A stretch of 33,461 nucleotides of DNA, taken from assembly GCA_016933475.1 (NCBI GenBank), contig JAFGAW010000261.1, positions 1 through 33,461 of the forward strand, given 5' to 3'. The first letter of the stretch is position 1, and each line of letters begins with the position of its first letter. Below the pieces are notes generated by a model that saw nothing but the letters and a program-made list of their open reading frames with translations, was not told the origin of the DNA and searched no databases. A program made the translations under genes and the position numbers. Source of the DNA: Thermoleophilia bacterium (GTDB lineage Bacteria; Actinomycetota; Thermoleophilia; UBA2241). Shown here in pieces: positions 13,693-26,341 of the stretch.

Positions 13693-14109
13693 ATGGCGTT
13701 AAACGGCAGGTGTCTGTGCGGCGGCGTGACCTACGAGGTCGTGGGCGAGCTGCCGACGCACGACGGCGACCTCCCCTTACCCGTGTACTGCCACTGCACT
13801 GATTGTCAACTCCACACCGGTGGGGCGTTCTTCGCCTCGTGCATGGCGCCGCTCGCCCAGTTCGCTCTCACGCAGGGACGTGAGCTTCTCACACGCTATG
13901 AGACCAGGCCCGGGGTCTACAGATCCTTCTGCAGCCGCTGCGGGTCGTCCCTGTTCTACGAGAACCACGACGAGCCGGGGCAGCTGTACTTCGCGCTCGG
14001 CACCGTCCCCGGCTTCCCGCTGCAGCCCCGGGCGCACATCTTCGTGCGCAGCAAGGTGCCGTGGTACGAGATCGCCGACGACCTGCCTCGGTTCGACGCG
14101 TATCCGTGA
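13693..14109 (+). CDS. GFA / CENP-V family zinc protein
   Basis: A 138-residue protein of the glutathione-dependent formaldehyde-activating enzyme (GFA)/CENP-V fold. The zinc ligands are visible: CLCGGV near residue 8, CHCTDCQ near residue 34 and CSRCGSSLFYE near residue 79. Other family marks are GGAFFASCMAP, YRSFCSRCG and PRAHIFVRSKVPWYEI. Family members are often called S-(hydroxymethyl)glutathione synthases, but few have that activity, and in a likely glutathione-free bacterium the annotation should stop at the fold. Formaldehyde chemistry would fit the methylamine genes nearby, but this is only suggestive. The ATG follows GAGGAG. Confidence 0.85.
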   Translation: MALNGRCLCGGVTYEVVGELPTHDGDLPLPVYCHCTDCQLHTGGAFFASCMAPLAQFALTQGRELLTRYETRPGVYRSFCSRCGSSLFYENHDEPGQLYFALGTVPGFPLQPRAHIFVRSKVPWYEIADDLPRFDAYP

Positions 14110-14225: not shown

Positions 14226-14639
14226 CTAGGCCCCGAGAACCTCGAAGCCCAGCGCCCGGGCGGCGCGCGCCTGCTGTCGGTCGTGCGTCGCGAAGGCCAG
14301 GTCTGACGTGCGCCCGTCGCGCCACAGCAGGGCCGTGGCGACCTGGAGCGCGTCGAGGGTGCCGAGCTGGGTCGCGAAGCCACCCGCGGCACGCTCCATG
14401 ATGCGGCGTGACAGCGCGACGCGGTGCGCGTTTTTGACCTTCTGGAAGACGGCGCCGCGGCGCGCCAAGGCCTCGTCTTCGTCGATCTCGCGCCGGGCCA
14501 GGGCGTTGTCGACCGCCCGGAGACACTCGATGCGAGTCAGGTCGGAGGTGACCAGGTCGAACCGCTCGAGCTCACGAAGCGGCTGCGGCTGCTCGAGGAC
14601 GATGCGAAGTACGACCGAGGAGTCGACGTAGGCGATCAC
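14226..14639 (-). CDS. vapC: VapC-type PIN-domain toxin
   Basis: A 137-residue PIN-domain ribonuclease. Acidic residues of the active site are visible: D6 in AYVDSSVVLRIVL, E38 in TRIECLRAV, D96 in GTLDALQVATAL, and D114/D120 in the SDLAFATHDRQQARAARALGF region. VapC toxins cleave specific tRNA or rRNA loops and are neutralised by the cognate VapB. The gene overlaps the end of vapB by four bases (ATGA type), so the two are translationally coupled. The stop codon is TAG. Confidence 0.88.
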   Translation of the reverse strand: MIAYVDSSVVLRIVLEQPQPLRELERFDLVTSDLTRIECLRAVDNALARREIDEDEALARRGAVFQKVKNAHRVALSRRIMERAAGGFATQLGTLDALQVATALLWRDGRTSDLAFATHDRQQARAARALGFEVLGA

Positions 14640-14971
14640 TCGGCCTCGCCCCCGCCTTTGTCACGGCGGGGCCCGAGCGCCTCGCGGACGATCTCGGAGA
14701 GGCGCTCGTCGCGGGCGTCGCGGTCGGCACGGATCAGCTCGGCGGCGTCGGGCAGCCCAGCCGGCGGATGCCCGAGCACCGGCTCGAACAGCCCGGGCGC
14801 GCGAAGGTCTGGCGGGATGACGTCGAGGTCGTCCCAATCGGCCACCTCAACAGGGCCGAGCGTGGCCACCGGGATGTCGCGGCTGACCACGGTGAACGAC
14901 TTGCCCTCGCGCACCTCGCGAAGGTAGTGGCTCAGCTTGGATTTGAGCTCGGCGACGGTCACGCGTTCCAT
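14636..14971 (-). CDS. vapB: VapB/Phd-type antitoxin
   Basis: A 111-residue antitoxin of the Phd/YefM fold: MERVTVAELKSKLSHYLREVREGKSFTVVSRDIPVATLGP is the DNA-binding N-terminal half, followed by a Pro/Asp-rich toxin-wrapping tail. ATG 14969-14971 is preferred over an upstream TTG because the promoter -10 hexamer ends only six bases before it, which would give a leaderless message. The gene overlaps vapC by four bases. The pair is expected to repress itself through the operator described upstream. Confidence 0.88.
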   Translation of the reverse strand: MERVTVAELKSKLSHYLREVREGKSFTVVSRDIPVATLGPVEVADWDDLDVIPPDLRAPGLFEPVLGHPPAGLPDAAELIRADRDARDERLSEIVREALGPRRDKGGGEAE

Positions 14972-15006
14972 GGTCACAGTATGACCAGAAGTGGTCAAGA
15001 TGACAA
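14971..15006 (-). promoter_or_regulatory. vapBC promoter with three overlapping operator half-sites
   Basis: Minus-strand TTGTCA (15001-15006) and CATACT (14978-14983) are 17 bp apart, with transcription expected at or beside the vapB ATG. Half-sites TGGTCA/TGACCA occur at 14971-14976, 14982-14987 and 14992-14997, in alternating orientation and 10-11 bp apart. They form two overlapping palindromes (TGGTCA-5-TGACCA and TGACCA-4-TGGTCA) that cover the -10 and spacer. This is the layout expected for toxin:antitoxin autorepression. Confidence 0.7.
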
Positions 15007-15175: not shown

Positions 15176-15249
15176 TGGGCTCTCGGACGAAGGGGGCGCT
15201 CCCGCTGCCCAGAACTGGCCGCGTTCCGGTCCGGCCAACGGTCCCGCCC

Positions 15250-15265
15250 ATACCCATAGGGGTAT
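15250..15265. promoter_or_regulatory. CsoR-type operator candidate, copy 1
   Basis: ATACCCATAGGGGTAT is a perfect 6-4-6 inverted repeat (ATACCC/GGGTAT), which is the core of copper-sensing CsoR and persulfide-sensing CstR operators. It lies 38 bp before the ATG of the 103-residue protein. The same position upstream of the paralogue at 23965 holds a similar site, and the bases GCCAACGGTCCCGC just upstream are also conserved. Confidence 0.6.
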
Positions 15266-15303
15266 AGGCACTCATCCTGACGATCAAGAAGAGAGGTACC
15301 CCC

Positions 15304-15615
15304 ATGTACGTCCTGAGCCTATGGCAGACCGTCCCGGACTACGCCGAGTGGAAGAAGCTCTTCGACAGCGACCCGCTCGGGCGGGAGAGGTCCGGCGTAC
15401 GCCGCTACACCATCACGCGGCCCGTCGACGACGAGCACACGGTGATCGGCGCGCTCGCGTTCGACAGCCTCGAGGAGGCCGAGGCCTTCGCCGCGCGCCT
15501 GCGCGAGATGTGGGAGGGCCCCGGCAGCGCGCTGGTGGCCGACGCGGGCCTGCGCATCAGCGAGGTCATCGAGGAGAAGACGATCGGCCGCGAGGCGGAG
15601 CGGAAGGCGGCCTGA
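15304..15615 (+). CDS. 103-residue ABM-like small protein, copy 1
   Basis: A small soluble protein beginning MYVLSLWQTVPDYAEWKKLFDSDPLGRE, with the core RPVDDEHTVIGALAFDSLEEAEAFAARLREMW. The strand-helix order and W/D residues resemble the dimeric alpha-beta barrel (ABM-like) superfamily, but no catalytic residue identifies a reaction. About four-fifths of residues are identical to the protein at 23965-24276. The ATG follows GAGAGG. The CsoR-like site upstream suggests induction by copper or reactive sulfur, which is inference. Its last codons form the first unit of a 22-bp tandem repeat. Confidence 0.8.
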   Translation: MYVLSLWQTVPDYAEWKKLFDSDPLGRERSGVRRYTITRPVDDEHTVIGALAFDSLEEAEAFAARLREMWEGPGSALVADAGLRISEVIEEKTIGREAERKAA

Positions 15616-15657
15616 GGCGGAGCGGAAGGCGGCCTGAGGCGGAACGGAAGGCGGCCT
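15592..15657. repeat. Three 22-bp tandem repeats over a stop codon
   Basis: Units at 15592-15613, 15614-15635 and 15636-15657 are identical except for one base in the third. The first contains the last seven codons and most of the stop codon of the 103-residue protein; the others lie downstream. The paralogue at 24276 has only one unit, so the expansion is specific to this copy. Confidence 0.85.
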
Positions 15658-15711
15658 TGGGCCAGCCGTTCGCCGTGGTGACCGACGAGCGCTGCGAGTC
15701 GATTGAGTCGT

Positions 15712-16440
15712 CTACTCGTCGTCGATGAGCCAGACGCGGACCTCGGCCGGCCCGTGGACGCCATAGCACATCACCCCGGCGATGTCGCCGCTGTGACTCG
15801 GGCCGGTGACGAAGGTGACGCACGCCGGCAGCGACGCGGCGGCGTCGTGCAGGCGGCCGAGCACGTCGCCGGGGCGCGGCACGAGCCGCGACGCGGGAAG
15901 AACGAAGCCGACGACGGGCGGCAGCAACGAGTGGCCCCGACCGCGGTCTCCGTGATGTCGGAGGGCGACGCTCCCCGTCTCCGCGATGCCCCACTCGGCC
16001 TCGCTGAGCCCGAAGTCGACGCAGCGCGGATCTTCGGTCCAGAGGTCGTCCAGCGCGGGCCAACGCAACGAGGGTGCGCAGGCGACGCCGGTCCACCCTC
16101 GCTCGCGCGCCAACGCCACGACCGCCGCCTGGGCTTGGCCGCGGTCGGACACCCGCACGGCCACGCCGCCGGCCTCGCCCAGGCGCGCCGCGAAGAGCTC
16201 GATGAGTCGGTGGCGATCCTCCGGCGGCCCACCTGCGGGACTTGCCGACGGTTCACCTGCGAGACCTGCCGGCGGCCGGGCCGCGCCCGGCTGGGCGACC
16301 GCCGGTCGGTTCACGCCCGGCTGCGCCCGGCTCGCAGCGACGCCGGGCGGCACGACCGGAGATGGCAGAGGGACGTCGCCGTCTGCGGCCGAGAGACGCA
16401 GCCGGGCGGCGACACGGGCGATGAAGACGTCCCGGTCCAC
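15712..16440 (-). CDS. lutC: LutC-like LUD-domain protein
   Basis: A 242-residue protein of the LUD (DUF162) family, the third subunit of the LutABC L-lactate oxidation complex. The conserved end WGIAETGSVALRHHGDRGRGHSLLPPVVGFVLPASRLV ... VTGPSHSGDIAGVMCYGVHGPAEVRVWLIDDE is typical. Residues 1-15 (VDRDVFIARVAARL) match the start of the family, followed by a Pro/Ala-rich low-complexity linker of about 60 residues that is longer than usual. I chose GTG 16440, two bases after the lutB stop (TGA-CC-GTG). The stop codon is TAG. Confidence 0.85.
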   Translation of the reverse strand: MDRDVFIARVAARLRLSAADGDVPLPSPVVPPGVAASRAQPGVNRPAVAQPGAARPPAGLAGEPSASPAGGPPEDRHRLIELFAARLGEAGGVAVRVSDRGQAQAAVVALARERGWTGVACAPSLRWPALDDLWTEDPRCVDFGLSEAEWGIAETGSVALRHHGDRGRGHSLLPPVVGFVLPASRLVPRPGDVLGRLHDAAASLPACVTFVTGPSHSGDIAGVMCYGVHGPAEVRVWLIDDE

Positions 16441-16442
16441 GG

Positions 16443-18038
16443 TCAGCGCCCCCTCCGCGCCGGGCTGCTGCTCGCGGGCGAGCCCGCGCGCGGGCGCCGG
16501 CGCCACAGCCGAGCGAAGCTCGCCGGCGCCGGCAGCGGCAGGTCGCGGGCGTCCGTCCAGGCACGCACGACACCGGGCGCGCGAAGCAGCCGGCTACGGC
16601 CGGAGGCGCCCGGCTCGAGCCGGCTCGCGGCACAGCGGCCGGGGTCGCACCCGCGCGCCGACCGCAAGATCGGTCGCAGCCCGCTCGCGACGCACAACGC
16701 GGCGTCCCACAAGCGGCGCCGCGTGGCCACGGCGGCGAAGCCCTTGAAGCCGAGCGCCCACCATCGCGGCTCGGCGGCCGAACTCGACCCCGAGCCCGAA
16801 GCCGGCACGGTGCTCGGGGCCGCGTTTGCGTCCGGGCTCGGCCCGGCTACCACGTCCGCCCTCAGTTCGAGCAACAGATCGCTGAGCGGCACCCGCGCCG
16901 GGCAGGCGTCGTCGCACGCGCCGCAGAGGGTCGAGGCGAAGGGCAGGTGCTCGCGGCCCTCCGACCCGTCGAGCAGCGGCGCGAGCACGGCTCCGATGGG
17001 CCCGGTGTAGACGGAGTCGTAGGCGTGACCGCCCATCGTGCGGTACACCGGGCAGAAGTCGGCGCAGCTCCCGCAGCGGATGCACTGCAGCACCGCCTGG
17101 TACTTGGTGCCCAGGATGCGCGAGCGCCCGTTGTCCACGATCACCACGTGGAGTTCTTCGGGGCCGTCAGCGTCTCCCTCCCGCCGGGGACCGGTGATCG
17201 CCGAGACGTAGGTGGTGAGGCGCTCGCCGGTGCCGGCCCGGGGGAGCATCACGAGCAGCGGCTCGAGGCTCCGCCAGTCGGGCACGAGCCGCTCCATGCC
17301 CATGACGACCACGTGGGTCGGCGGCAACGTGGTCGTCATCCGCCCGTTGCCCTCGTTGGTCACGAGGACCACGGTGCCGGTGGAGGCGACGCCGAAGTTG
17401 GCCCCGGAGACGCCGAGGTCGGCCGTGAGGAACCGGTCGCGCAGCGTGCGGCGCGCCGACGCGGCGAGCGCGTCGGGCTCCTCGGGCAGGTCCTCGCCCG
17501 CGGCGCGCGAGAGGATCTCCCTGATGCGCGGCAGGCGCATGTGCACGGCGGGCCCGGTGATGTGGTAGGGCCGCTCGCCGGCGAGCTGCGCGATGTAGGC
17601 GCCGAGGTCGGTCTCGGTCACCTCGGCGCCCGTGGCCGCGAGCGCCGCGTCGAGGCCGATCTCCTCGCTGACCATCGACTTGGCCTTGACGACACGACGG
17701 ACGCCCTTGCGGCGCGCGACGTCGGCGACGTACTCGCGCGCCTCCTCGGCATCGGCGGCGAAGAACACGTGCCCCCCGGCCCGCTCGACATTGGCGGCGA
17801 ACTCGGCGAGGTAGCGGTCGAGGTGGGCGAGGGTGTGGCGTCTTACGGCGGCGACGGCGTCACGCCACTCCTCGGCGTCTCCGAGGTCGTCGTGCGCCCA
17901 GCGGTGCCACCCCTGCTGCACGGCCTGGTAGTTGTCGAGCCATTCGTGAAGCGGCCGGTCGGCCACGGTGGCGCGGGCGACGGCGTCGAAGCGGGCGCGC
18001 GGCGTGTCGGCCGCGGGAGGGCGCGACCGCCGCCTCAT
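16443..18038 (-). CDS. lutB: LutB-like iron-sulfur protein
   Basis: A 531-residue LUD-domain iron-sulfur protein. The N-terminal LUD part has VVKAKSMVSEEIGLDAAL, ETDLGAYIAQLAGERPYHITGPAVHMR, FLTADLGVSGANFGVASTGTVVLVTNEGNGRM and HVVVMGMERLVP. The ferredoxin part has two cysteine clusters, CIRCGSCADFCPVYR and CGACDDACPARVPL, for two [4Fe-4S] clusters. The C-terminal 130 residues are a Pro/Ser/Arg-rich tail that is poorly conserved. The ATG at 18038 overlaps the lutA stop by ATGA and lutC starts two bases after its stop, so the three are translationally coupled. Together they oxidise L-lactate or a related 2-hydroxyacid to the keto acid. Confidence 0.92.
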   Translation of the reverse strand: MRRRSRPPAADTPRARFDAVARATVADRPLHEWLDNYQAVQQGWHRWAHDDLGDAEEWRDAVAAVRRHTLAHLDRYLAEFAANVERAGGHVFFAADAEEAREYVADVARRKGVRRVVKAKSMVSEEIGLDAALAATGAEVTETDLGAYIAQLAGERPYHITGPAVHMRLPRIREILSRAAGEDLPEEPDALAASARRTLRDRFLTADLGVSGANFGVASTGTVVLVTNEGNGRMTTTLPPTHVVVMGMERLVPDWRSLEPLLVMLPRAGTGERLTTYVSAITGPRREGDADGPEELHVVIVDNGRSRILGTKYQAVLQCIRCGSCADFCPVYRTMGGHAYDSVYTGPIGAVLAPLLDGSEGREHLPFASTLCGACDDACPARVPLSDLLLELRADVVAGPSPDANAAPSTVPASGSGSSSAAEPRWWALGFKGFAAVATRRRLWDAALCVASGLRPILRSARGCDPGRCAASRLEPGASGRSRLLRAPGVVRAWTDARDLPLPAPASFARLWRRRPRAGSPASSSPARRGR

Positions 18039-18760
18039 CTCCCCCACCCCTCCGCGAGCACTTCGGCGAGGTGTCTGACGCGCACACCGGCGCCGCGGCG
18101 CGACAACCGCCCGCCGATGTTCATGAGGCAGCTCATGTCGAGACCGAGCAGCTCGTCGGCCCCGGTCTCGAGGACGTGGTCGACCTTGTCGTCGACGAGC
18201 GACGACGAGATGACCGGCATCTTCACGGCGAACGTGCCGCCGAAGCCGCAGCACTCCTCGGCGCGCGGGAGCGGCACGTACTCGAGCCCTTCGACCATAC
18301 CCAGCAGGCGCTCGGGCTGCTCGACGACGCCGAGCAGACGGCGCGTGTGGCAGGAGTGGTGGAAGGTGACGCGCGCCTTGTGGCGCACCGGCAGCTCGGT
18401 GACGTCCATGACGTCGGTGAGGAACTGCGAGAACTCCCAGGTGCGCGCGGCGAGCGCCCGCGCCTCCGCCTCCTCCGTGAGGCCCTCGAAGAGCACCGGG
18501 TAGTGCCGGCGCACCATGGCGGCGCAGGAGCCCGAGATCGAGACCACGTGCTCGCTGACGGCGAACGCCTTCAGGTAGGCACGCGCCGCCGCGCGGGCCT
18601 CTTCACGGTAGCCGCTGTTGAAGGCCGGCTGGCCGCAACAGACCTGGCTCGGCGGGAAGTCGACCTCAACGCCGAGCGCCTCCATGACCTTCACGGCGGC
18701 GACGCCGACCTGGGGGTACAGGGCGTCGCCCAGACAGGTGATCATGAGCGACGCCTTCAC
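18035..18760 (-). CDS. lutA: LutA-like CCG-domain protein
   Basis: A 241-residue protein with two cysteine-rich CCG domains: SQVCCGQPAFNSGY near residue 40 and EECCGFGGTFAVKMP near residue 170, plus HHSCHTRRLLG. These ligate an iron-sulfur or heterodisulfide-reductase-type cluster in LutA/GlpC-like proteins. The GTG at 18758-18760 fits the family start (MKASLMITCLGDALYP); ATG 18745 would cut it by five residues. It overlaps lutB by four bases. The larA-like gene ends 66 bp upstream, close enough for one transcript. Confidence 0.9.
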   Translation of the reverse strand: MKASLMITCLGDALYPQVGVAAVKVMEALGVEVDFPPSQVCCGQPAFNSGYREEARAAARAYLKAFAVSEHVVSISGSCAAMVRRHYPVLFEGLTEEAEARALAARTWEFSQFLTDVMDVTELPVRHKARVTFHHSCHTRRLLGVVEQPERLLGMVEGLEYVPLPRAEECCGFGGTFAVKMPVISSSLVDDKVDHVLETGADELLGLDMSCLMNIGGRLSRRGAGVRVRHLAEVLAEGWGR

Positions 18761-18826
18761 GCGCGACAGCCCAGGAGCGATCGTCGTGATGCCGGAGGCT
18801 CGACCGTCATCTCCGGCCGGCGGCGA

Positions 18827-20128
18827 TCACGTCAGTCTCGAGAGCAGCACGCCCTCGCCGTCGAACGCCAGCGGCTCCGGCTCGGGCGCGACGACCAGGT
18901 CCGCCTCGGGGTGCAGCCGTGCGAGACACCCCGTAGACACCTCGAGGCGCTCCATCGCCAGGGTGTTGCGGATGTGCACCAGGCGCAGGTCGTCGAGCGT
19001 GTAGGGACGCAGGGTCGCGAGCGCGGCGGCGAGCGCCTGACGGTCGCTCGCGAAGGTGAGGGGGAGCTTGCCGTCCTCGGGAGCGCAGGAGGCGAGCGCG
19101 TTGGTGGCCGAGGCGGCGAGGTCGATCGCCTCAGTGAGCCGCAGGGGCGCCATGTCGACGGAGCCCAGCCCGCAGGCGTTGCCCTCCGTGGCCTCGGTCA
19201 GCGCCCGGACCACGATGCGCGTGACCCGCGGGGACTCGCGCGGCTCGGTCCAGACGCCGGTGGAGCGGCCGGTCACGTTGGGGTCCATGCCGGCTCCGCT
19301 CACGTCCTTGCCCATCTCGTCGACGAGCAGGACGTCGATGTCGTCGAGCGGCAGCCGCGGCAGGAGCGTGCGCGCGTACTCGAGCAACTCGGGCTCCTCA
19401 GTCTCCCAGTGCGGCGCCGGGAGAACGCGGACCGCGCAGGCACGGTGCCGCTGGTTCTCGACCAGGGCGATGCCGAGGATGACGGGCACGCGCTCGAGGA
19501 GCGCGCGCCCCGCGGTCGTGACCACGTCGGCAAGCCCGCGCTCGAGGGCGTGGCGGTGGCACGCCGTGGCGCCGGGCTCGTTGCCGAGGCCGATCACGAG
19601 CATCTTGGTGAGCCCGCTCTCGACCCGGCCGACGAAGTCCGTGTGGGGCTTCACGCGGTTGACGAGCACGATGCCGTCGGCCGCGGCAGCCTCCCTGTCG
19701 AGGAAGAGCGGCAGTCCCCCGGCCTCGCCGAGCGAGACGACCTCGACCGAGGCGCGGACGGGGGCGCCGACGGACTCCTCGGTGATGCCGCGCTCGGCCA
19801 GCACCGCCGCCTGCCCGGCGGCGGTGGCGTTGCCGTGCGAGCCCATCGCCGAGACGATGTACGGGCGGCAGCCCGCGTCGCGCAGCCGCGCGACGACGGC
19901 CCGCACGACCTCGGGCAGGCCGTCGATGCCGCGGCTGCCGACCCCGATGGCGACGGAGGCGCCGGGCGGCAGGGCCACACCGCCCCAGGCGGGGCTCCAC
20001 TGCCGCCCGACCTCGGCCGCCGCGTCGACCGGCGGTGGCGCCGCAAAGCGCTGCTCGACGAGGTGCATCGCCGGCAGCGGCAGCGCCTCCCAGCCGTCCG
20101 GCGGCTCGCAGAGCTCGATGACGGTCAT
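18827..20128 (-). CDS. LarA-like nickel-pincer isomerase family protein
   Basis: A 433-residue protein of the LarA/DUF2088 family. Recognisable parts are GVGSRGIDGLPEVVRAVV, the GSHGNAT loop (ligand-binding histidine), NRVKPHTDFVGRVESGLTKMLVIGLGN, and DVLLVDEMGKDVSGAGMDPNVTGR. LarA racemises lactate with a nickel-pincer nucleotide; many homologues act on other 2-hydroxyacids, so the substrate is open. Its place just before lutABC suggests that it converts the enantiomer or epimer not used by Lut. No larB, larC or larE cofactor genes are in the window. ATG 20128 follows GGGAGG. The aminotransferase gene ends 25 bp upstream. Confidence 0.8.
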   Translation of the reverse strand: MTVIELCEPPDGWEALPLPAMHLVEQRFAAPPPVDAAAEVGRQWSPAWGGVALPPGASVAIGVGSRGIDGLPEVVRAVVARLRDAGCRPYIVSAMGSHGNATAAGQAAVLAERGITEESVGAPVRASVEVVSLGEAGGLPLFLDREAAAADGIVLVNRVKPHTDFVGRVESGLTKMLVIGLGNEPGATACHRHALERGLADVVTTAGRALLERVPVILGIALVENQRHRACAVRVLPAPHWETEEPELLEYARTLLPRLPLDDIDVLLVDEMGKDVSGAGMDPNVTGRSTGVWTEPRESPRVTRIVVRALTEATEGNACGLGSVDMAPLRLTEAIDLAASATNALASCAPEDGKLPLTFASDRQALAAALATLRPYTLDDLRLVHIRNTLAMERLEVSTGCLARLHPEADLVVAPEPEPLAFDGEGVLLSRLT

Positions 20129-20153
20129 ACGGCCTCCCGCCCGGCAACGCGAC

Positions 20154-21305
20154 TCATGCCGTCTCCGCAGCAAGCGCCTCGAGAAAGCGCCGGTTCTGTT
20201 CGGGCGTGCCGACGGTGACCCGCATGCAGGTCGGCAACCCCCAGCCCGACGCAGGCCGCACGATGACGCCGCGATGCAGGAGCCGCTCGAAGAGCGCATC
20301 CGCGTTCTGCTTCACGTCGACGAAGACGAAGTTGGTCTGGCTGGGCACAGGGTCGAAGCCCAGGCGCGCGAGCTCCGCGACGAGGAGCTCGCGCCCCCGC
20401 CGGTTCTCCTCCACGCAGCGCTCGCGCCAGTCTGTGTCGGCCAGCGCGACAGGCCCGGCCGCCACCGAGAGCCGGTTCAGGTTGAAGGGCTCCTTGATGG
20501 TGTCGAGAAGCTGCCGCACGGCCGGCGCGGCGATGCCGTACCCGAGGCGCAGCCCGGCCAGACCATACGCCTTGGAGAAGGTGCGCAGCACGATCACGTT
20601 GTCGTGGCCGGCCTTGAAGTACTCGAGCCCGTCGGGGTACTCGGGGGCATCGGCGAACTCGAAGTAGGCCTGGTCGAAGACGACGGCCACCGTCGGCGGC
20701 ACCGCCGCGAGAAAGGCCGCGACCTCGTCGCGGCGGACGATCGTGCCCGTCGGGTTGTTCGGGTTGCACAGCCAGACGACACGCGTGCGCGGGGTCACCG
20801 CGGCCGCCATCGCCTCGAGGTCGTGGCGCAGGTCGCTGAGCGGAACGCGCACGACGCGGGCGCCCATGAGCTTGCTCGCCTCTTCGTAGCGGCCGAAGGT
20901 CACGTCGGCCACGACGACCTCGTCGCCGGGGCTCACGTAGAGCTGCGGGATGAGCTGGATGAGCGCCTCGGTCCCGTGGCCGACGAAGACGCTCTCCGCG
21001 GCCACTCCGTTGGCCTCGGCCAGGGCGCCCTTCAGATCGAAGAAGCTCTTCTCGGGGTACGTCGCGAGCTTGGGCAGGGTGGCCGCGATCGCCTCGAGCA
21101 CGCGCGGCGACGGCCCCAGCGGGTTCTCGTTGGACGACAGCTTGACGATGTCGCTGAGGCCGAGCTCCCGCTGCACCTCCTCGACCGTCATGCCGGCGAC
21201 GTACTCGACGAGCGTCAGCGCCTCGGGCCGGCAGCAGGAGGTCACGTCGTGCGGCGTCGCGTCGTGCGGCGTGCCTTCGTGCGGCGTCGCGCCTCCAGGC
21301 CTCAC
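20154..21305 (-). CDS. HisC-like class I/II aminotransferase
   Basis: A PLP aminotransferase of the histidinol-phosphate aminotransferase group, 383 residues from GTG 21305. Key segments are VKLSSNENPLGPSP, GHGTEALIQLI, WLCNPNNPTGTIV, VFDQAYFEFA and the PLP lysine in RTFSKAYGLAGLRLGYG, then SQTNFVFVD and MRVTVGTPEQNRRFLEAL. The GTG overlaps the lrp stop (GTGA), so translation is coupled; GTG 21245 is an alternative and would remove a repeated TPHD/ATPHD segment. It is embedded in an lrp-larA-lut cluster with no other his gene. It may therefore deaminate an aromatic or other amino acid to the keto acid rather than make histidine; this is inference. Confidence 0.85.
   Translation of the reverse strand: MRPGGATPHEGTPHDATPHDVTSCCRPEALTLVEYVAGMTVEEVQRELGLSDIVKLSSNENPLGPSPRVLEAIAATLPKLATYPEKSFFDLKGALAEANGVAAESVFVGHGTEALIQLIPQLYVSPGDEVVVADVTFGRYEEASKLMGARVVRVPLSDLRHDLEAMAAAVTPRTRVVWLCNPNNPTGTIVRRDEVAAFLAAVPPTVAVVFDQAYFEFADAPEYPDGLEYFKAGHDNVIVLRTFSKAYGLAGLRLGYGIAAPAVRQLLDTIKEPFNLNRLSVAAGPVALADTDWRERCVEENRRGRELLVAELARLGFDPVPSQTNFVFVDVKQNADALFERLLHRGVIVRPASGWGLPTCMRVTVGTPEQNRRFLEALAAETA
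21246..21290. repeat. 15-bp degenerate tandem repeat
   Basis: Three near-identical 15-bp units encode the aminotransferase N-terminal EGTPHD-ATPHD segment on the minus strand. It lies in the short stretch between the lrp stop and the first conserved aminotransferase residues. It makes the exact start codon uncertain. Confidence 0.6.
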
Positions 21306-21886
21306 GCCGCACCCCCGACGCCTCGGCCACCCGCCAGCTTGACCCGCCCGCGGCCGGCGTACTCGGCGGGGTGACCCGTGGCGGGCTCGGCCGTCGAACC
21401 GATCGCCTCGCCCTCCCACTTGTAGTTGAACTTCTCGGTGCGCATGACCATCGAGGTCTCGACCGAGGCCACACCCTCGATGGGCAAGAGCTCCTCGGTG
21501 ACGAAGCGGAAGAGATCGTCGTTGTCGCGCAGGAAGGCCTCGACCTGGATGTCGTACATGCCGCTCAGGTAGCCGACGTAGGAGACGTTGTCCATGGCGG
21601 CGATCTGCTCGCCGACGTCGCGCAGATTGCGGCCCGAGACCTTGATGTTGAGGACCGCGTCGACCGGGTAGCCGATCGCCGCCGGGTTGATGCGCACCGT
21701 CACGTGCGCGACCCCGCTGCCGACGAGACGGTCGATGCGCTGCCGCACCGTCGGCTGCGAGACGCCGACGGCGCGGGCGATGGCGGCGTTGGAGCGGCGA
21801 CCGTCCTCGCGGAGGAGCCGCAGGATGGCCCGGTCGAGCTCGTCGAGCTCGACGGCGCCAAACGGCGCCGACCCCTGTCGCGTCAT
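21302..21886 (-). CDS. Lrp/AsnC-family transcriptional regulator
   Basis: A 194-residue regulator. The N-terminal winged helix-turn-helix is LDELDRAILRLLREDGRRSNAAIARAVGVSQPTVRQRIDRLVGSGV (about 14-60), and the C-terminal RAM domain follows (VTVRINPAAIGYPVDAVLNIKV ... DIQVEAFLRDNDDLFRFVTEELLPIEGVASVETSMVM). A 35-residue Gly/Arg-rich tail after KFNYKWE is unusual. ATG 21886 follows GGAGGTGG. It heads the hisC-like/larA-like/lutABC cluster and is divergent from a solute-binding lipoprotein, so it probably controls both in response to an amino acid. Confidence 0.9.
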   Translation of the reverse strand: MTRQGSAPFGAVELDELDRAILRLLREDGRRSNAAIARAVGVSQPTVRQRIDRLVGSGVAHVTVRINPAAIGYPVDAVLNIKVSGRNLRDVGEQIAAMDNVSYVGYLSGMYDIQVEAFLRDNDDLFRFVTEELLPIEGVASVETSMVMRTEKFNYKWEGEAIGSTAEPATGHPAEYAGRGRVKLAGGRGVGGAA

Positions 21887-21934
21887 CAGCCACCTCCACC
21901 TCGATTGACCGTCAGAGTCTACATGAGTAAGAGC

Positions 21935-21952
21935 GATTCATCTACAAGAATC
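21935..21952. promoter_or_regulatory. Dyad in the lrp/solute-binding intergenic region
   Basis: GATTC (21935-21939) and GAATC (21948-21952) form an inverted repeat with an eight-base A/T-rich centre. The 235-bp divergent region is the most AT-rich stretch nearby. Lrp-family sites are loose AT-rich dyads of about this size, so this is a candidate operator. Confidence 0.4.
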
Positions 21953-21997
21953 AAGGCGTACCCGCGTCATTACTTTCATAATCGGGGGCTGATTTCG

Positions 21998-22026
21998 TTG
22001 ACAGCTCATCCATCCTGCATGACAAT
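21998..22026 (+). promoter_or_regulatory. Sigma70-type promoter of the family 5 binding protein
   Basis: TTGACA (21998-22003) and GACAAT (22021-22026) are separated by 17 bp. This would start a message about 90 bases ahead of the ATG at 22122. Confidence 0.65.
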
Positions 22027-22121
22027 GCCGGCGAAGCGCCGTCGGCCTCCGTAAGGGTGCCAACAGCTCGCTGAGGGAGCCGGCACGTCAGTCGATCGTG
22101 AGGGGGGAAGGAGGATGGGTG

Positions 22122-23765
22122 ATGACCATTGACGACCGCGGCTCTCCGCGCCGGATCGTGCGGGCGGAGGGCTTCGAGGCGTGGCGGTTCACGCGCCGCG
22201 ACCTGCTCAAGGGAGCGGCCGCCATCGGCGGCGCGGCTGCCTTCGGCGTCCCGATCCTCGCCGGCTGCGGTGAAGACTCCGAGACGGCGACGCCGAGCCC
22301 TGCGGCCGAGTCGCCGGTCAAGGGCGGCCACATCCGCTCCGGTGTCAGCGGCGGCAGTGCCAAGGACTCGCTCGACGCCCACACCGCCTACCTCACCGTG
22401 CCGCAGATCGGCATGCAGTGGCAGCTCTACGACTCGCTGCTCGGGTTCGACCCCGACCACAAGATGATCTACCTGCTGGCCGAGTCGTACGAGCCCAGCG
22501 CCGACGCCACCGAGCACGTCGTGCGGCTCAAGCCCGACCTCGTCTTCCACAACGGCAAGACAGTCACCGCCGACGATGTGGTCGCGAGCTACCTGCGGAT
22601 CCTCGACCCGAAGACGGGGGCCGCCGGCGTCGACCTGCTCAGCGACCTCAGCCCGAGCGGCATCAAGAAGCTCGACGATCTCACGGTGCAGTTCACGCTC
22701 GACCGCCCGAACGCCATCTTCTGGGAGTCCCTGGCCTTCTTCTGCAACGCGATCGTGCCCGAGGGCTACGACCCCAAGGTCGACACCGGCCTGATCGGCA
22801 CCGGGCCCTGGGTCATCGACTCCTACTACCCGGGCGACAAGGCGCACTTCACCGCCAACCCCGACTACTGGGGCGAGGGGCCGTACGCCGACGAGCTCAC
22901 GATGACCCAGTTCGCCGACTCGACGGCACGCCTCAACGCCCTGCTCGACGGCTCCGTCGACCACATCGAGCTCGTCGAGGCCGCGCAGACCGAGGTCATC
23001 AAGGGCAACGCCGACCTGACGCTCCTCGAGGCGAAGTCCGGCGGCTGGAAGCCCTTCACCATGCGCATCGACAAGAAGCCCTTCGACGACGTGCGCGTGC
23101 GACAGGCGATGCGCCTGATCGCCGACCGCCAGCAGATGATCGACCAGGCGCTGGCCGGCTACGCGTGGCTCGGCAACGACATGTACGCCCCGTACGACCC
23201 GGGCTACCCGAGCGACCTGCCGCAGCGCACGCAGGATCTCGAGCAGGCCAAGTCCCTGCTCAAGCAGGCGGGGTACGAGGGCCTCACCGTCGAGCTGACG
23301 ACGTCGTCCGCGGTCGGCTCGGGCATGGTCGAGGCCGCCCAGGTCTTCGCCGAGCAGGCCAAGGGCGCCGGCGTGACCATCGACGTCAACAACGTCGACG
23401 CCGGCATCTTCTACGGCGACGACTACCTGCAGTGGGACTTCGCGCAGGACTACTGGGCGACGCGCAACTACCTCGCCCAGACCAAGCTCTGCACCACCCC
23501 CGACGCGCCCTACAACGAGACCCACTGGCAGGACGACGAGTGGCAGGCGCTCATCGACGAGGCCTTCCTCACCTCCGACGAGGCGAAGCGCAACGAGCTC
23601 GTCCGAGCGGCCGAGACGATCGAGTACGAGCGCGGCGGCTTCATCGTCTGGCAGCACAACATCCTGCTCGACGCCTACAACAACAGGCTTGGCGGCGTGA
23701 TCCCCGACACGTGGGGGCAGTCCGCCTGCAAGAACCGCTACAACCTCATGTACTTCAGGTCGTAG
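22122..23765 (+). CDS. Family 5 solute-binding lipoprotein (DppA/OppA type)
   Basis: A 547-residue extracellular binding protein for an ABC importer of peptides, nickel or similar solutes. A Tat motif (FTRRDLLKG, R25-R26) and lipobox (LAGC, Cys49) predict a Tat-exported lipoprotein. Family landmarks are WQLYDSLLGFDPDHK, FHNGKTVTADDVVASYLRIL, GTGPWVIDSYYPGDKAHFTANPDYWG, FDDVRVRQAMRLIADRQQMID and the long C-terminal lobe. ATG 22122 lies 7 bp after AAGGAGG; an upstream GTG (22098) has no such site. There are no permease or ATPase genes beside it. Divergence from lrp suggests amino-acid or peptide uptake controlled by that regulator. The stop codon is TAG, followed by a 20-bp-stem terminator. Confidence 0.9.
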   Translation: MTIDDRGSPRRIVRAEGFEAWRFTRRDLLKGAAAIGGAAAFGVPILAGCGEDSETATPSPAAESPVKGGHIRSGVSGGSAKDSLDAHTAYLTVPQIGMQWQLYDSLLGFDPDHKMIYLLAESYEPSADATEHVVRLKPDLVFHNGKTVTADDVVASYLRILDPKTGAAGVDLLSDLSPSGIKKLDDLTVQFTLDRPNAIFWESLAFFCNAIVPEGYDPKVDTGLIGTGPWVIDSYYPGDKAHFTANPDYWGEGPYADELTMTQFADSTARLNALLDGSVDHIELVEAAQTEVIKGNADLTLLEAKSGGWKPFTMRIDKKPFDDVRVRQAMRLIADRQQMIDQALAGYAWLGNDMYAPYDPGYPSDLPQRTQDLEQAKSLLKQAGYEGLTVELTTSSAVGSGMVEAAQVFAEQAKGAGVTIDVNNVDAGIFYGDDYLQWDFAQDYWATRNYLAQTKLCTTPDAPYNETHWQDDEWQALIDEAFLTSDEAKRNELVRAAETIEYERGGFIVWQHNILLDAYNNRLGGVIPDTWGQSACKNRYNLMYFRS

Positions 23766-23797
23766 CGGCCGGCACGACGACCGACGCAGAGCGCACG

Positions 23798-23841
23798 GCG
23801 CGGGGCGCCCGCGGCCCATCCGGGCCGCGGGCGCCCCGCGC
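23798..23841 (+). terminator. 20-bp perfect-stem terminator
   Basis: The arms 23798-23817 and 23822-23841 are perfectly complementary around the loop ATCC, 32 bp after the binding-protein stop. The stem is almost pure G/C. Only a short GTTCGG follows, with no U-run, as is common for hairpin terminators in high-GC actinobacteria. Confidence 0.8.
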
Positions 23842-23909
23842 GTTCGGCGACGCCTGGTCAGGGCCCGTTCGGTCGACGGTCACGGCCCGTCCCGCCAACG
23901 GTCCCGCAC

Positions 23910-23925
23910 GTACCCCCCGGGGTAT
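23910..23925. promoter_or_regulatory. CsoR-type operator candidate, copy 2
   Basis: GTACCCCCCGGGGTAT aligns with the site at 15250-15265 and contains TACCCC/GGGGTA arms. It lies at an equivalent position, 39 bp before the ATG of the paralogous gene. The preceding GCCAACGGTCCCGC is also shared. Confidence 0.55.
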
Positions 23926-23964: not shown

Positions 23965-24276
23965 ATGTACGTCCTCAACTTCTGGCACACCGTCCCCGAC
24001 TACACGGAATGGAAGAAGGTCTTCGACAGCGACCCGCTGGGCCGCGAGGCCTCCGGCGTACGTCGTCACACCCTTACACGACCCGTCGACGACGAGCACA
24101 CGGTGATCGGCGCGCTGGCGTTCGACAGCCTGGGCGAGGCCGAAGCCTTCGCCATCCGGCTACGGGAAGTGTGGGAGGGCCTCGGCAGCGGGCTGGTGGC
24201 CGACGCCGGCTCGCGCATCAGCGAGGTCCTCGAGGAGAAGGTGTTCGATCGCGAAACGGAGCGGAAGGCCGCCTGA
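23965..24276 (+). CDS. 103-residue ABM-like small protein, copy 2
   Basis: Paralogue of the gene at 15304-15615, of identical length. It has MYVLNFWHTVPDYTEWKKVFDSDPLGRE, the invariant block RPVDDEHTVIGALAFDSL, and the same ending ERKAA. About 19 of 103 residues differ. The function is unknown; the fold is probably a dimeric alpha-beta barrel. The upstream operator and leader are conserved along with the coding region, so the whole expression unit was duplicated. A gagaggaa-type ribosome site precedes the ATG. Confidence 0.8.
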   Translation: MYVLNFWHTVPDYTEWKKVFDSDPLGREASGVRRHTLTRPVDDEHTVIGALAFDSLGEAEAFAIRLREVWEGLGSGLVADAGSRISEVLEEKVFDRETERKAA

Positions 24277-24292: not shown

Positions 24293-24874
24293 CTAGTCGG
24301 CCGTGGCGCCCGTCCCCCGCAGCAAGCCCGGAAGCATCGCCGCCCAGGCGCGAATCGCCGCCCAGTCGCGGTCGTCGTGGGCGGCGATGCCGTGCAGCGG
24401 GCTCGCCGGGAGCGCCGCGATCAACCTGTCGGCGACGCGCAGGCGGCCCGGATCGTACTTGCCGACGAACATCTCGGCGGCGACCGGATGCAACCACCCC
24501 AGCTTGGCGAGCGCGCCGTCGAGCTGCTGGCGAGCGGCGTCGAGGTCGTCGTCGGCGCTCAGCGGCCCGCAGGTGAGAAGCGCGACGGGCAGGCGCGCGA
24601 GCGCGGCGCGCTCGCGCTCGAGGAAGCGCGCCGCGCCCTTCAGCATGGCGCCCATGTAGAAGGGCGTGGCGAGCAGGACGCCGTCGTAGCCGACGTGGCC
24701 GACGTGGCCGTGCTCGCGAGCACCGCCGTCGTGGCCGTCGCCGACGGCGGCGTCCTTCGCGGCCGCCACCTCGACCGTGAGCCCGTGCTCGCGCAGGGTC
24801 GCCGCCGCAGCCTCGGCGACCTCACGCGTCGAGCCGTAGCGCGTCGCGTACGCGACCAGGACCGTATCGTTCAT
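24293..24874 (-). CDS. Flavodoxin-domain protein, HemG-like
   Basis: A 193-residue flavodoxin-fold protein. The FMN phosphate loop is YATRYGSTREVAEA (residues 8-21), and YDGVLLATPFYMGAMLKGAARFLERE matches the flavodoxin_5/HemG group, as does a C-terminal DWAAIRAWAAML helix. A His/Gly-rich insertion (GDGHDGGAREHGHVGHVGYDG) precedes the second strand. Such proteins can be menaquinone-dependent protoporphyrinogen oxidases or simple electron carriers; I cannot choose. ATG 24874 has GGAGTGG 7 bp upstream. A 13-bp repeat (CGTTCATCGTGCC) at the start makes a longer product possible. The stop codon is TAG. Confidence 0.8.
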   Translation of the reverse strand: MNDTVLVAYATRYGSTREVAEAAAATLREHGLTVEVAAAKDAAVGDGHDGGAREHGHVGHVGYDGVLLATPFYMGAMLKGAARFLERERAALARLPVALLTCGPLSADDDLDAARQQLDGALAKLGWLHPVAAEMFVGKYDPGRLRVADRLIAALPASPLHGIAAHDDRDWAAIRAWAAMLPGLLRGTGATAD

Positions 24875-24943
24875 CGTGCCACTCCGTTCATCGTGCCTCT
24901 CCCCTTCTCCGCGCACGAGATCCGCGCGGGCCGGGTCTTCTCC

Positions 24944-25693
24944 TCACCCTCGGACGGCACCCGCATCGAGCCGGCGCTCTCGTCGGGCTCGCACAGTGTC
25001 AGCGTGAGCCGACTCGCTCTCTGCACCGGCCCCCGCCTCGGCCCCGGCCCCCGCCTCGGCCCCGGCCCACGCGTCGCGCACGAGGCTCAGGACCGCGGTG
25101 AGAAGGAGCAGGCCGAAGGCGGCGCAGATCGCCGCGATCACCAGCGCCGCGCTCTCGACGCCCCAGAAGTAACTGAGCATCGGGACGCCGGGCAGGAGGA
25201 AGAGCCATGCGGCGAGGCACGCGGCGAGCGCCGCCGGCCACAGCCCAGCCCATCCCCATGCGCGCCCGCGCGTGAGGCGCCGGCCCGCGCGGGCGCGCCG
25301 CCCGCGGCTCGGCGCGCCCCCCAGCACCGCCGTGAGCCCGACCAGAGTGCCGAGCAGCGGCGGGCCGAAGCCGCCGCCGACGAGCAGCAGCACGAGCGCG
25401 AGCCCGATGAGCACCAGCCCGCCGTGCCGGCGCTGGACGAACGCCACCGACCACACCATCACGAGGAGCGACACGGCGATGGTGAGAATCTCGGCGGCGA
25501 GCAGGTCCGGCACGACCGTGAGGGCGGGCTCACCGCTCTGGATGCGGAAGAACGCCGAGCCCGGCCACGACTGGATCACCAGCCCGGCCGGCCTGACGCT
25601 GCCCTGCAGCAGCTCGCCCAGGCCGTGCTCGATGCCGGCCAGCGCCACCACGCTGCCGAAGACCGCGACGACGGTGCGCGTCGCCCGTCCCAT
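24944..25693 (-). CDS. Multi-spanning membrane protein, unknown function
   Basis: A 249-residue integral membrane protein with about six hydrophobic segments: TVVAVFGSVVALAGIEHGLG; LLAAEILTIAVSLLVMVWSVAFV; GGLVLIGLALVLLLVGGGFG; PPLLGTLVGLTAVLGG; WPAALAACLAAWLFLLPGV; and ALVIAAICAAFGLLLLTAVLSLV. The C-terminus is an Ala/Gly/Glu repeat (GAEAGAGAEAGAGAE) encoded by an 18-bp tandem repeat near 25034-25075. ATG 25693 is preceded by a strong GGAGGAGGAG site. It lies 69 bp upstream of the flavodoxin gene and 99 bp downstream of the TetR gene on the same strand, so the three may form one unit controlled by that TetR. Confidence 0.75.
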   Translation of the reverse strand: MGRATRTVVAVFGSVVALAGIEHGLGELLQGSVRPAGLVIQSWPGSAFFRIQSGEPALTVVPDLLAAEILTIAVSLLVMVWSVAFVQRRHGGLVLIGLALVLLLVGGGFGPPLLGTLVGLTAVLGGAPSRGRRARAGRRLTRGRAWGWAGLWPAALAACLAAWLFLLPGVPMLSYFWGVESAALVIAAICAAFGLLLLTAVLSLVRDAWAGAEAGAGAEAGAGAESESAHADTVRARRERRLDAGAVRG

Positions 25694-25792
25694 GCTCACT
25701 CCTCCTCCCTCAACCGCACGCTCGACCACGCCGCATGATCGTTCGCTCGCGGTCACCCGCCGATCACCCAGCTGACCGCGCCACGCACCGGT

Positions 25793-26341
25793 TCACCCCG
25801 CCGCGCCGACGAGCAGGCGGTGCACGGCGGCGAGCGCCGCCGCCTCAGCGTCGCTCGCCGGGTCGTCGCGCAGCCTGCGCACCGCCTCGGTGCCGATCGC
25901 CACGAGGAACGCCGCGGTCATCTCCGGGTCGTCCACGTGCAGCTCGCCCGACGCGCTGCCCTGCTCGATCAGCGTGCGCAGCATCGGCGCGAACACCTGC
26001 GCGTTGACGTCGTTGACGATCTCGGGAGGCTCCGTCTCGTCGCGGTAGGGGTCGGCGCCGAACCCGCGCCGCGCATCGGCGAAGGCGATGGCGACCGCCT
26101 GCTCCACACGCCCGAGGGCGGTCGGCGCGGTCAGCAACGACTCCACGTGCCGGCGCTGCTCCCGCGCCCAGAGCTCGACCGCGTACCGGTACAGCTCCTG
26201 CTTGCTCGGGAAAAGCTCGTAGATCGTCTTCTTCGAGATGCGCAACGCGCGCGCGACGTCCTCGACCGCGGCCCGTCGGTAGCCGTAGCGCAGCACGAGG
26301 CCGCGGAACTCGGTGGCGATCTGGTCTTTGGTGGCGGGCAT
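25793..26341 (-). CDS. TetR-family regulator
   Basis: A 182-residue TetR protein. The helix-turn-helix is near residues 8-55 (ATEFRGLVLRYGYRRAAVEDVARALRISKKTIYELFPSKQELYRYAVELW). The ligand domain runs to LLVGAAG and has no feature that indicates a ligand. ATG 26341 follows AGGAG by five bases. It has an unusually clear promoter and a perfect palindromic operator upstream, so it is very probably autoregulated and may control the membrane protein and flavodoxin genes downstream. Confidence 0.88.
   Translation of the reverse strand: MPATKDQIATEFRGLVLRYGYRRAAVEDVARALRISKKTIYELFPSKQELYRYAVELWAREQRRHVESLLTAPTALGRVEQAVAIAFADARRGFGADPYRDETEPPEIVNDVNAQVFAPMLRTLIEQGSASGELHVDDPEMTAAFLVAIGTEAVRRLRDDPASDAEAAALAAVHRLLVGAAG

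Follow-up and report, generated by a model that had tools for sequence, protein, structure and literature searches.

In the ScCsoR/SCO0620 sulfane-sulfur circuit of Streptomyces coelicolor the polysulfide sensor ScCsoR requires Cys37 and Cys66, binds ATACCn6GGTAT operators, is autoregulated and belongs to a cluster of four genes (regulator, persulfide dioxygenase, rhodanese and sulfite transporter) (PMC7533328). Staphylococcus aureus CstR has a single operon under direct control and leaves copAZ to its paralogue CsoR (PMC5480029), the CstR-like TTHA1953 of Thermus thermophilus has scattered targets including thioredoxin (SoxW) and binds TACNNTACNNNNGTANNGTA, an operator without a G/C run, with copA under a separate true CsoR (PMC10318464), and YrkD of B. 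licheniformis is another CstR-like sensor with an 11-gene cluster (PMC9918477). Here we describe a window of 33,461 nucleotides, the whole of one contig (C248) of a Thermoleophilia bacterium (genome G000; 2.49 Mb, 295 contigs, 80% complete), in which two palindromes of the CsoR/CstR operator type precede two small paralogous genes, P0001 and P0002, whose products are predicted to have the fold of ABM (antibiotic biosynthesis monooxygenase) proteins. The genome's CsoR-family regulator, P0003, is like ScCsoR in Cys37/Cys66, in its 16-bp operator type and in the site within its own promoter, like S. aureus CstR in its two cysteines, in the lack of His at the ligand place and in its side of the tree, and like TTHA1953 in the scatter of its targets. 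It differs from all three in the predicted regulon: ScCsoR serves a cluster whereas the P0003 sites are dispersed before copA, thioredoxin-type and ABM genes, CstR serves one operon whereas P0003 has many predicted sites with copA among them, and neither the operator of TTHA1953 nor its separate copA control is shared. What sets the present case apart is thus that the predicted targets of one CstR-like gene are dispersed and have copA and ABM-fold proteins among them, an arrangement that appears in no title or abstract opening of the literature found on CstR, CsoR, copA and sulfurtransferase.

The two palindromes end 38 bp (operator A) and 39 bp (operator B) before the ATG codons of the small genes (15304 and 23965), as a sequence-only reading of the window had reported (Table 1). 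Both are pseudo-palindromes whose TAC..GTA arms flank a G/C run; operator A fits the ATACCn6GGTAT consensus (PMC7533328) exactly and operator B in all but its first base (G, not A). A scan of the window for the strict motif ATACCC-N3..5-GGGTAT with at most one mismatch returned A as an exact and B as a single-mismatch site and no third, compared with a mean of 0.03 sites in 30 dinucleotide shuffles of the window. The 16-mer of operator A is repeated exactly between the thioredoxin and ilvD genes of the same genome, in which about 1e-4 copies are expected. When the two leaders are aligned, the site itself is conserved at 12/16 positions with a variable centre and the stretch from site to ATG at 26/41 columns, while the adjoining 16 bp on the upstream side (GCCAACGGTCCCGCMC) are conserved at 15/16; the earlier statement that other leader bases have drifted is therefore only partly right. 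A CCAACGG block resembling the upstream block also precedes a third copy of the gene, in G002.

The motif recurs across the window's bacterial family (15 genomes including G000). The strict form occurs 37 times in these genomes and its reversed-pattern control once, where base composition predicts about 2.5 occurrences at the window's GC content and 2.2 to 4.9 over GC 0.72 to 0.64. By our count, 31 of the 37 precede recurring thiol- or metal-linked genes, the neighbours having been read and representatives of the target families scanned; the names IlvD, PaaK, ArsR, NrfA, CcdA and ferredoxin-like are by-eye readings. The most frequent targets are a TlpA/ResA-like thiol-disulfide protein gene back to back with that of a small zinc-ribbon protein (8 genomes) and ilvD back to back with a DUF302 gene, or with thioredoxin in G000 (8 genomes, in G001 only ilvD being read), followed by copA and OsmC (3 sites each), ArsR and DUF6951-like proteins (2 each, one of the latter scanned), a zinc-ribbon gene in G003 (two sites), and a DsbH/DUF255 protein, the ferredoxin-like protein on G000:C202 and P0001 (one each). 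The six other strict sites lie at G002:C14:71252, G011:C325 (contig end), G012:C26, G005:C9 and G005:C18 and at one of three sites on G003:C135. A given gene pair can have a 4-bp spacer in one genome and a 5-bp spacer in another, consistent with one regulator. In G000 the looser pattern marks thioredoxin/ilvD, tlpA, copA/paaK, the ferredoxin-like gene and the two paralogues. One further single-mismatch site (G000:C125:17532, ATACCCCTTGGGGTGT) was dropped as a likely non-operator, lying 3' of a gene read as the nitrite reductase NrfA. More sites of this type, which the sequence-only reading had proposed to look for, are thus present in the genome and recur family-wide before the same gene families.

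A csoR or cstR gene, on which that reading hinged, is also present. A PF02583 search found a single such gene in G000, encoding P0003, which scores 86.1 bits against CsoR/RcnR (DUF156, PF02583; curated cut-off 22.8); across the family set one PF02583 gene was found in each of 13 genomes and none in the other two. The promoter of P0003 itself (TTGTCC-17 bp-TATATT) carries ATATCCCCCCGGGGGGTAT across its spacer, so that the palindrome fills the gap between the -35-like and -10-like hexamers (TTGTCC CATATCCCCCCGGGGGG TATATT), and the regulator promoters of its relatives have a similar layout. With the single PF02583 gene, the site in its own promoter and the family-wide regulon, control by a CsoR-family protein appears well supported at the level of sequence.

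The ligand residues of P0003 point away from copper. The protein has three cysteines (Cys37, Cys66 and Cys94) and no histidine; where the copper-sensing CsoR relatives in the PDB (4m1p, 4adz) carry a His four positions ahead of the second Cys, completing the Cys-His-Cys ligands, P0003 has Lys62, leaving the two conserved cysteines without copper-ligand His (C37, C66) that characterise CstR. All 12 of the 12 full-length family members have Lys at this place. Among 66 aligned CsoR-family rows the place is taken by His in 37 (36 class rows and S. aureus CsoR), by Lys or Arg in 26 (12 from the window's family and 14 others) and by Asn or Gly in three (two annotated CstR, and a protein of Streptomyces clavuligerus whose gene has rhodanese and TauE genes on its flanks). 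The 50 class rows comprise 30 loci from the search and 20 picked from its list, with the fragment L073 left out; PDB 7mq1 is taken to be pneumococcal CstR. In the tree the His rows split from all others with support 99/97, and P0003 lies on the side of the characterised or annotated CstR, on a branch that carries a long-branch warning. One regulator of the His type and one of the non-His type occur together in five class genomes (G017, G027, G052, G077 and G081). The best reading of these sequence features is that the sensor would be of the CstR kind rather than a copper CsoR. We call it CstR-like and do not file it as CstR because no sulfurtransferase, SQR or persulfide dioxygenase gene is among those read beside the sites. 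In CstR-like regulators from other families of the class (L191, L193-L197, L199, L200 and L202) a His stands one residue earlier (H-R...C), where a shifted His ligand is conceivable.

CopA was searched in all 15 family genomes, and 12 best loci gave a usable leader (G011 ends at a contig end; no start motif was found in G004 and G006). Nine of the 12 leaders carry a site with at most one mismatch (G000, G002, G003, G005, G007, G009, G010, G013 and G014); the others have two (G001, G012) or three mismatches (G008), and 40 shuffles per leader never fell below two. The best reading is that a CstR-like reactive-sulfur/thiol regulon also took over copA. The sequence-only reading had instead pointed to copB in the window. 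A copper-type P-type ATPase gene is indeed there, but its link to the sites found no support, as no CsoR-type site was found in its leader, where the best match has three mismatches.

P0001 and P0002, described earlier as about four-fifths identical, are both 103 residues long and share 82% identity. No direct Pfam or NCBIfam name was obtained for either, nor a direct match to Pfam ABM (PF03992), which is touched by 20 of 37 aligned relatives at E up to 0.1 (best 1.4e-7). No further copies were found elsewhere in the 80%-complete genome, a scan of its contigs with P0002 returning one distant relative only; in a profile search of the class, 62 of 299 genomes had relatives. A PDB profile search gave nothing credible, its top row being a repeat artefact. 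The AlphaFold2 model of P0002, built from a 37-row alignment, has a predicted local distance difference test score (pLDDT) of 92.5 and a predicted template modelling score (pTM) of 0.81, and shows the ferredoxin-like beta-alpha-beta-beta-alpha-beta fold of ABM proteins. Foldseek and VIA-align on this model matched the ABM-type proteins RslO4, SnoaB, LsrG and MhuD, the best being RslO4 (Z 10.8, root mean square deviation 3.2 over 101 residues). We are confident on the basis of the model that P0001 and P0002 would share the ABM (dimeric alpha/beta barrel) fold, in line with the earlier suggestion. Their likeness to RslO4, SnoaB, LsrG, MhuD and YgiN lies in fold and length; in the alignments listed, the identities are about 6-22%. 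Both paralogues lack cysteine, which makes a sulfur-carrier role unlikely. The third copy, in G002, is 68% identical to P0002, and its leader keeps ATACCTCCCCGGGGTAT, farther from the start codon. The literature search found nothing joining 'antibiotic biosynthesis monooxygenase' with 'persulfide'; PMC6414726, a paper that has the former term together with 'CsoR', lists the ABM gene SCO1909 at 2.2-fold in a table of the mutant SCO2730::Tn5062 compared against S. coelicolor. At its 3' end the P0001 gene has a 22-nt stretch that occurs three times in tandem, the repeats running past the stop codon. Sister ABM-like genes in five genomes (L041 in G003, L042 in G008, L136 in G007, L142 in G011 and L150 in G004) have another conserved palindrome, roughly TAGTGGGTCATNANCCACTA, upstream of them, which suggests a second regulator for paralogous ABM-like proteins.

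These observations suggest that the two paralogues take part in a sulfur- or copper-stress response under one repressor. In our judgement they are probably, with appreciable room for doubt, members of a regulon of the reactive-sulfur/thiol type held off by the single CstR-like repressor P0003; the observed basis is the sites, their family-wide recurrence, the site in the regulator's own promoter, the two cysteines without His, the position in the tree beside CstR and the ABM fold. Copper, acting on Cys37, Cys66 and perhaps the C-terminal Cys94, might instead be what P0003 senses for the family, so that the whole regulon, ABM proteins included, would answer copper stress. The frequency of copA leader sites, the lack of any other CsoR-family gene found in the 15 genomes and the copper-type ATPase gene within the window speak for this, as does IlvD, an Fe-S enzyme that is a classical target of copper damage. 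We nevertheless regard it as unlikely, as the ligand His is replaced by Lys in a protein without any His, P0003 groups with CstR and away from the His-bearing CsoR, most targets are thiol-disulfide proteins, and the five class genomes with one regulator of each kind fit a division of labour. The FrmR-type general electrophile or aldehyde sensors belong to the same family, FrmR matches P0003, if weakly, and a GFA-domain gene lies in the window; we give very little credence to such a sensor running the regulon, as FrmR scores below CstR, CsoR and InrS, P0003 lacks His, and its Cys66 falls, by our own placement, on FrmR Glu64 (residue named in PMC5016687).

The high identity of the paralogues, the equally conserved 16 bp upstream of the sites and the absence of the site from more distant homologues could also be read as the mark of a recent duplication, which would have left roleless remnants before these two genes and true control only at the other members of the regulon. 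That the G002 copy retains its site with another spacing to the start codon, that both palindrome arms persist around a varying centre, and that a looser site is expected by chance in one 200-bp leader at about 2e-4 make this improbable. Several points weigh against the CstR-like regulon itself. Of the classical targets of CstR (SQR, persulfide dioxygenase, rhodanese/sulfurtransferase and TauE), none is among the genes examined beside the sites, and copA in the regulon points to copper. The tree rests on few columns, and long branches at the CstR rows make their exact place unsure. As the genome is only 80% complete, the assembly could lack a second CsoR-family gene. The looser pattern gives 6 sites in G000 where base composition predicts 2.8 (reversed control 0), so that the strong evidence comes from the family-wide strict pattern and not from this count by itself. 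For the more distant ABM homologues of G003, G006 and G008, the 110 bp preceding the gene show no site, and in G001, which with G000 and G002 makes up the genus within the family set, the protein was not found; the regulon link is therefore genus-level (3/3 close copies, two of three genomes), and the ABM proteins appear from their leaders to be genus-specific members of the CstR-like regulon.

Under control by CstR-like P0003, the apo-repressor would bind the palindrome and block RNA polymerase, and a persulfide or polysulfide would modify Cys37/Cys66 and release the DNA, as Cu(I) on the bare cysteines possibly might also do. Thioredoxin, TlpA/CcdA, OsmC, DUF302, CopA and the ABM proteins would then be made. 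The ABM proteins would most likely be small dimeric cofactor-free enzymes or binders rather than sulfur carriers, and would act on a reactive small molecule accumulating under that stress, for instance a quinone.

The surroundings of the paralogues hold further genes of note. Between them lie LUD-domain, LutB-like and CCG genes of the lactate-utilisation type, after which come genes for a Lar_N-domain protein, an aminotransferase and an Lrp/AsnC regulator. P0002 has a flavodoxin-domain gene and a TetR-type gene close by, and by-eye reading finds TetR-like and flavodoxin-like open reading frames near the G002 copy too (L076 8201-10001). A PIN-domain gene with a Phd/YefM-type antitoxin-like open reading frame forms a possible type II toxin-antitoxin pair.

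Table 1. Features of the window, with the regulator P0003 from contig C125 of the same genome
Feature	Position	Strand	Evidence
GFA-domain gene	13693-14109		
PIN-domain gene and Phd/YefM-type antitoxin-like open reading frame	14226-14998	-	
Conserved block GCCAACGGTCCCGCCC, directly 5' of operator A	15234..15249	+	15/16 identical to block before operator B
CsoR/CstR-type operator A, ATACCCATAGGGGTAT	15250..15265	+	motif match; identical 16-mer at G000:C4:11389
P0001, 103-residue ABM-fold protein (predicted), paralogue A	15304..15615 (stop included)	+	open reading frame and paralogue comparison
Three tandem copies of the 22-nt 3' end of P0001	15595-15656		
LUD-domain, LutB-like, CCG, Lar_N-domain, aminotransferase and Lrp/AsnC genes	15712-18760	-	
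Conserved block GCCAACGGTCCCGCAC, directly 5' of operator B	23894..23909	+	alignment of the two leaders
CsoR/CstR-type operator B, GTACCCCCCGGGGTAT	23910..23925	+	motif match
P0002, 103-residue ABM-fold protein (predicted), paralogue B	23965..24276 (stop included)	+	AlphaFold2 pLDDT 92.5
Flavodoxin-domain and TetR-type genes	24293-26341	-	
Copper-type P-type ATPase (copB), cut by contig end	31687-33461	+	over TIGR01511 cut-off; CPH motif
P0003, CsoR-family regulator	C125:4947-5234	-	PF02583 search

CsoR and CstR paralogues usually divide the sensing of copper and persulfide between them. The window's family may do without a copper-type CsoR altogether: as a tentative proposal, which we think possible though less than probable, one His-free CstR-like sensor would answer both reactive sulfur and Cu(I), pool copA with thiol-repair genes and, in one genus, have recruited Cys-free ABM-fold proteins as a new kind of detoxifying enzyme for the combined stress. 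A family with a single CstR-like gene, His-free in the window's genome, and with its operator also before copA would make it directly testable whether bare cysteines can sense copper, the alternative being that copper export now answers to sulfur stress. For the unnamed group of ABM-fold proteins, the sites would provide a first regulatory context and hence a test condition.

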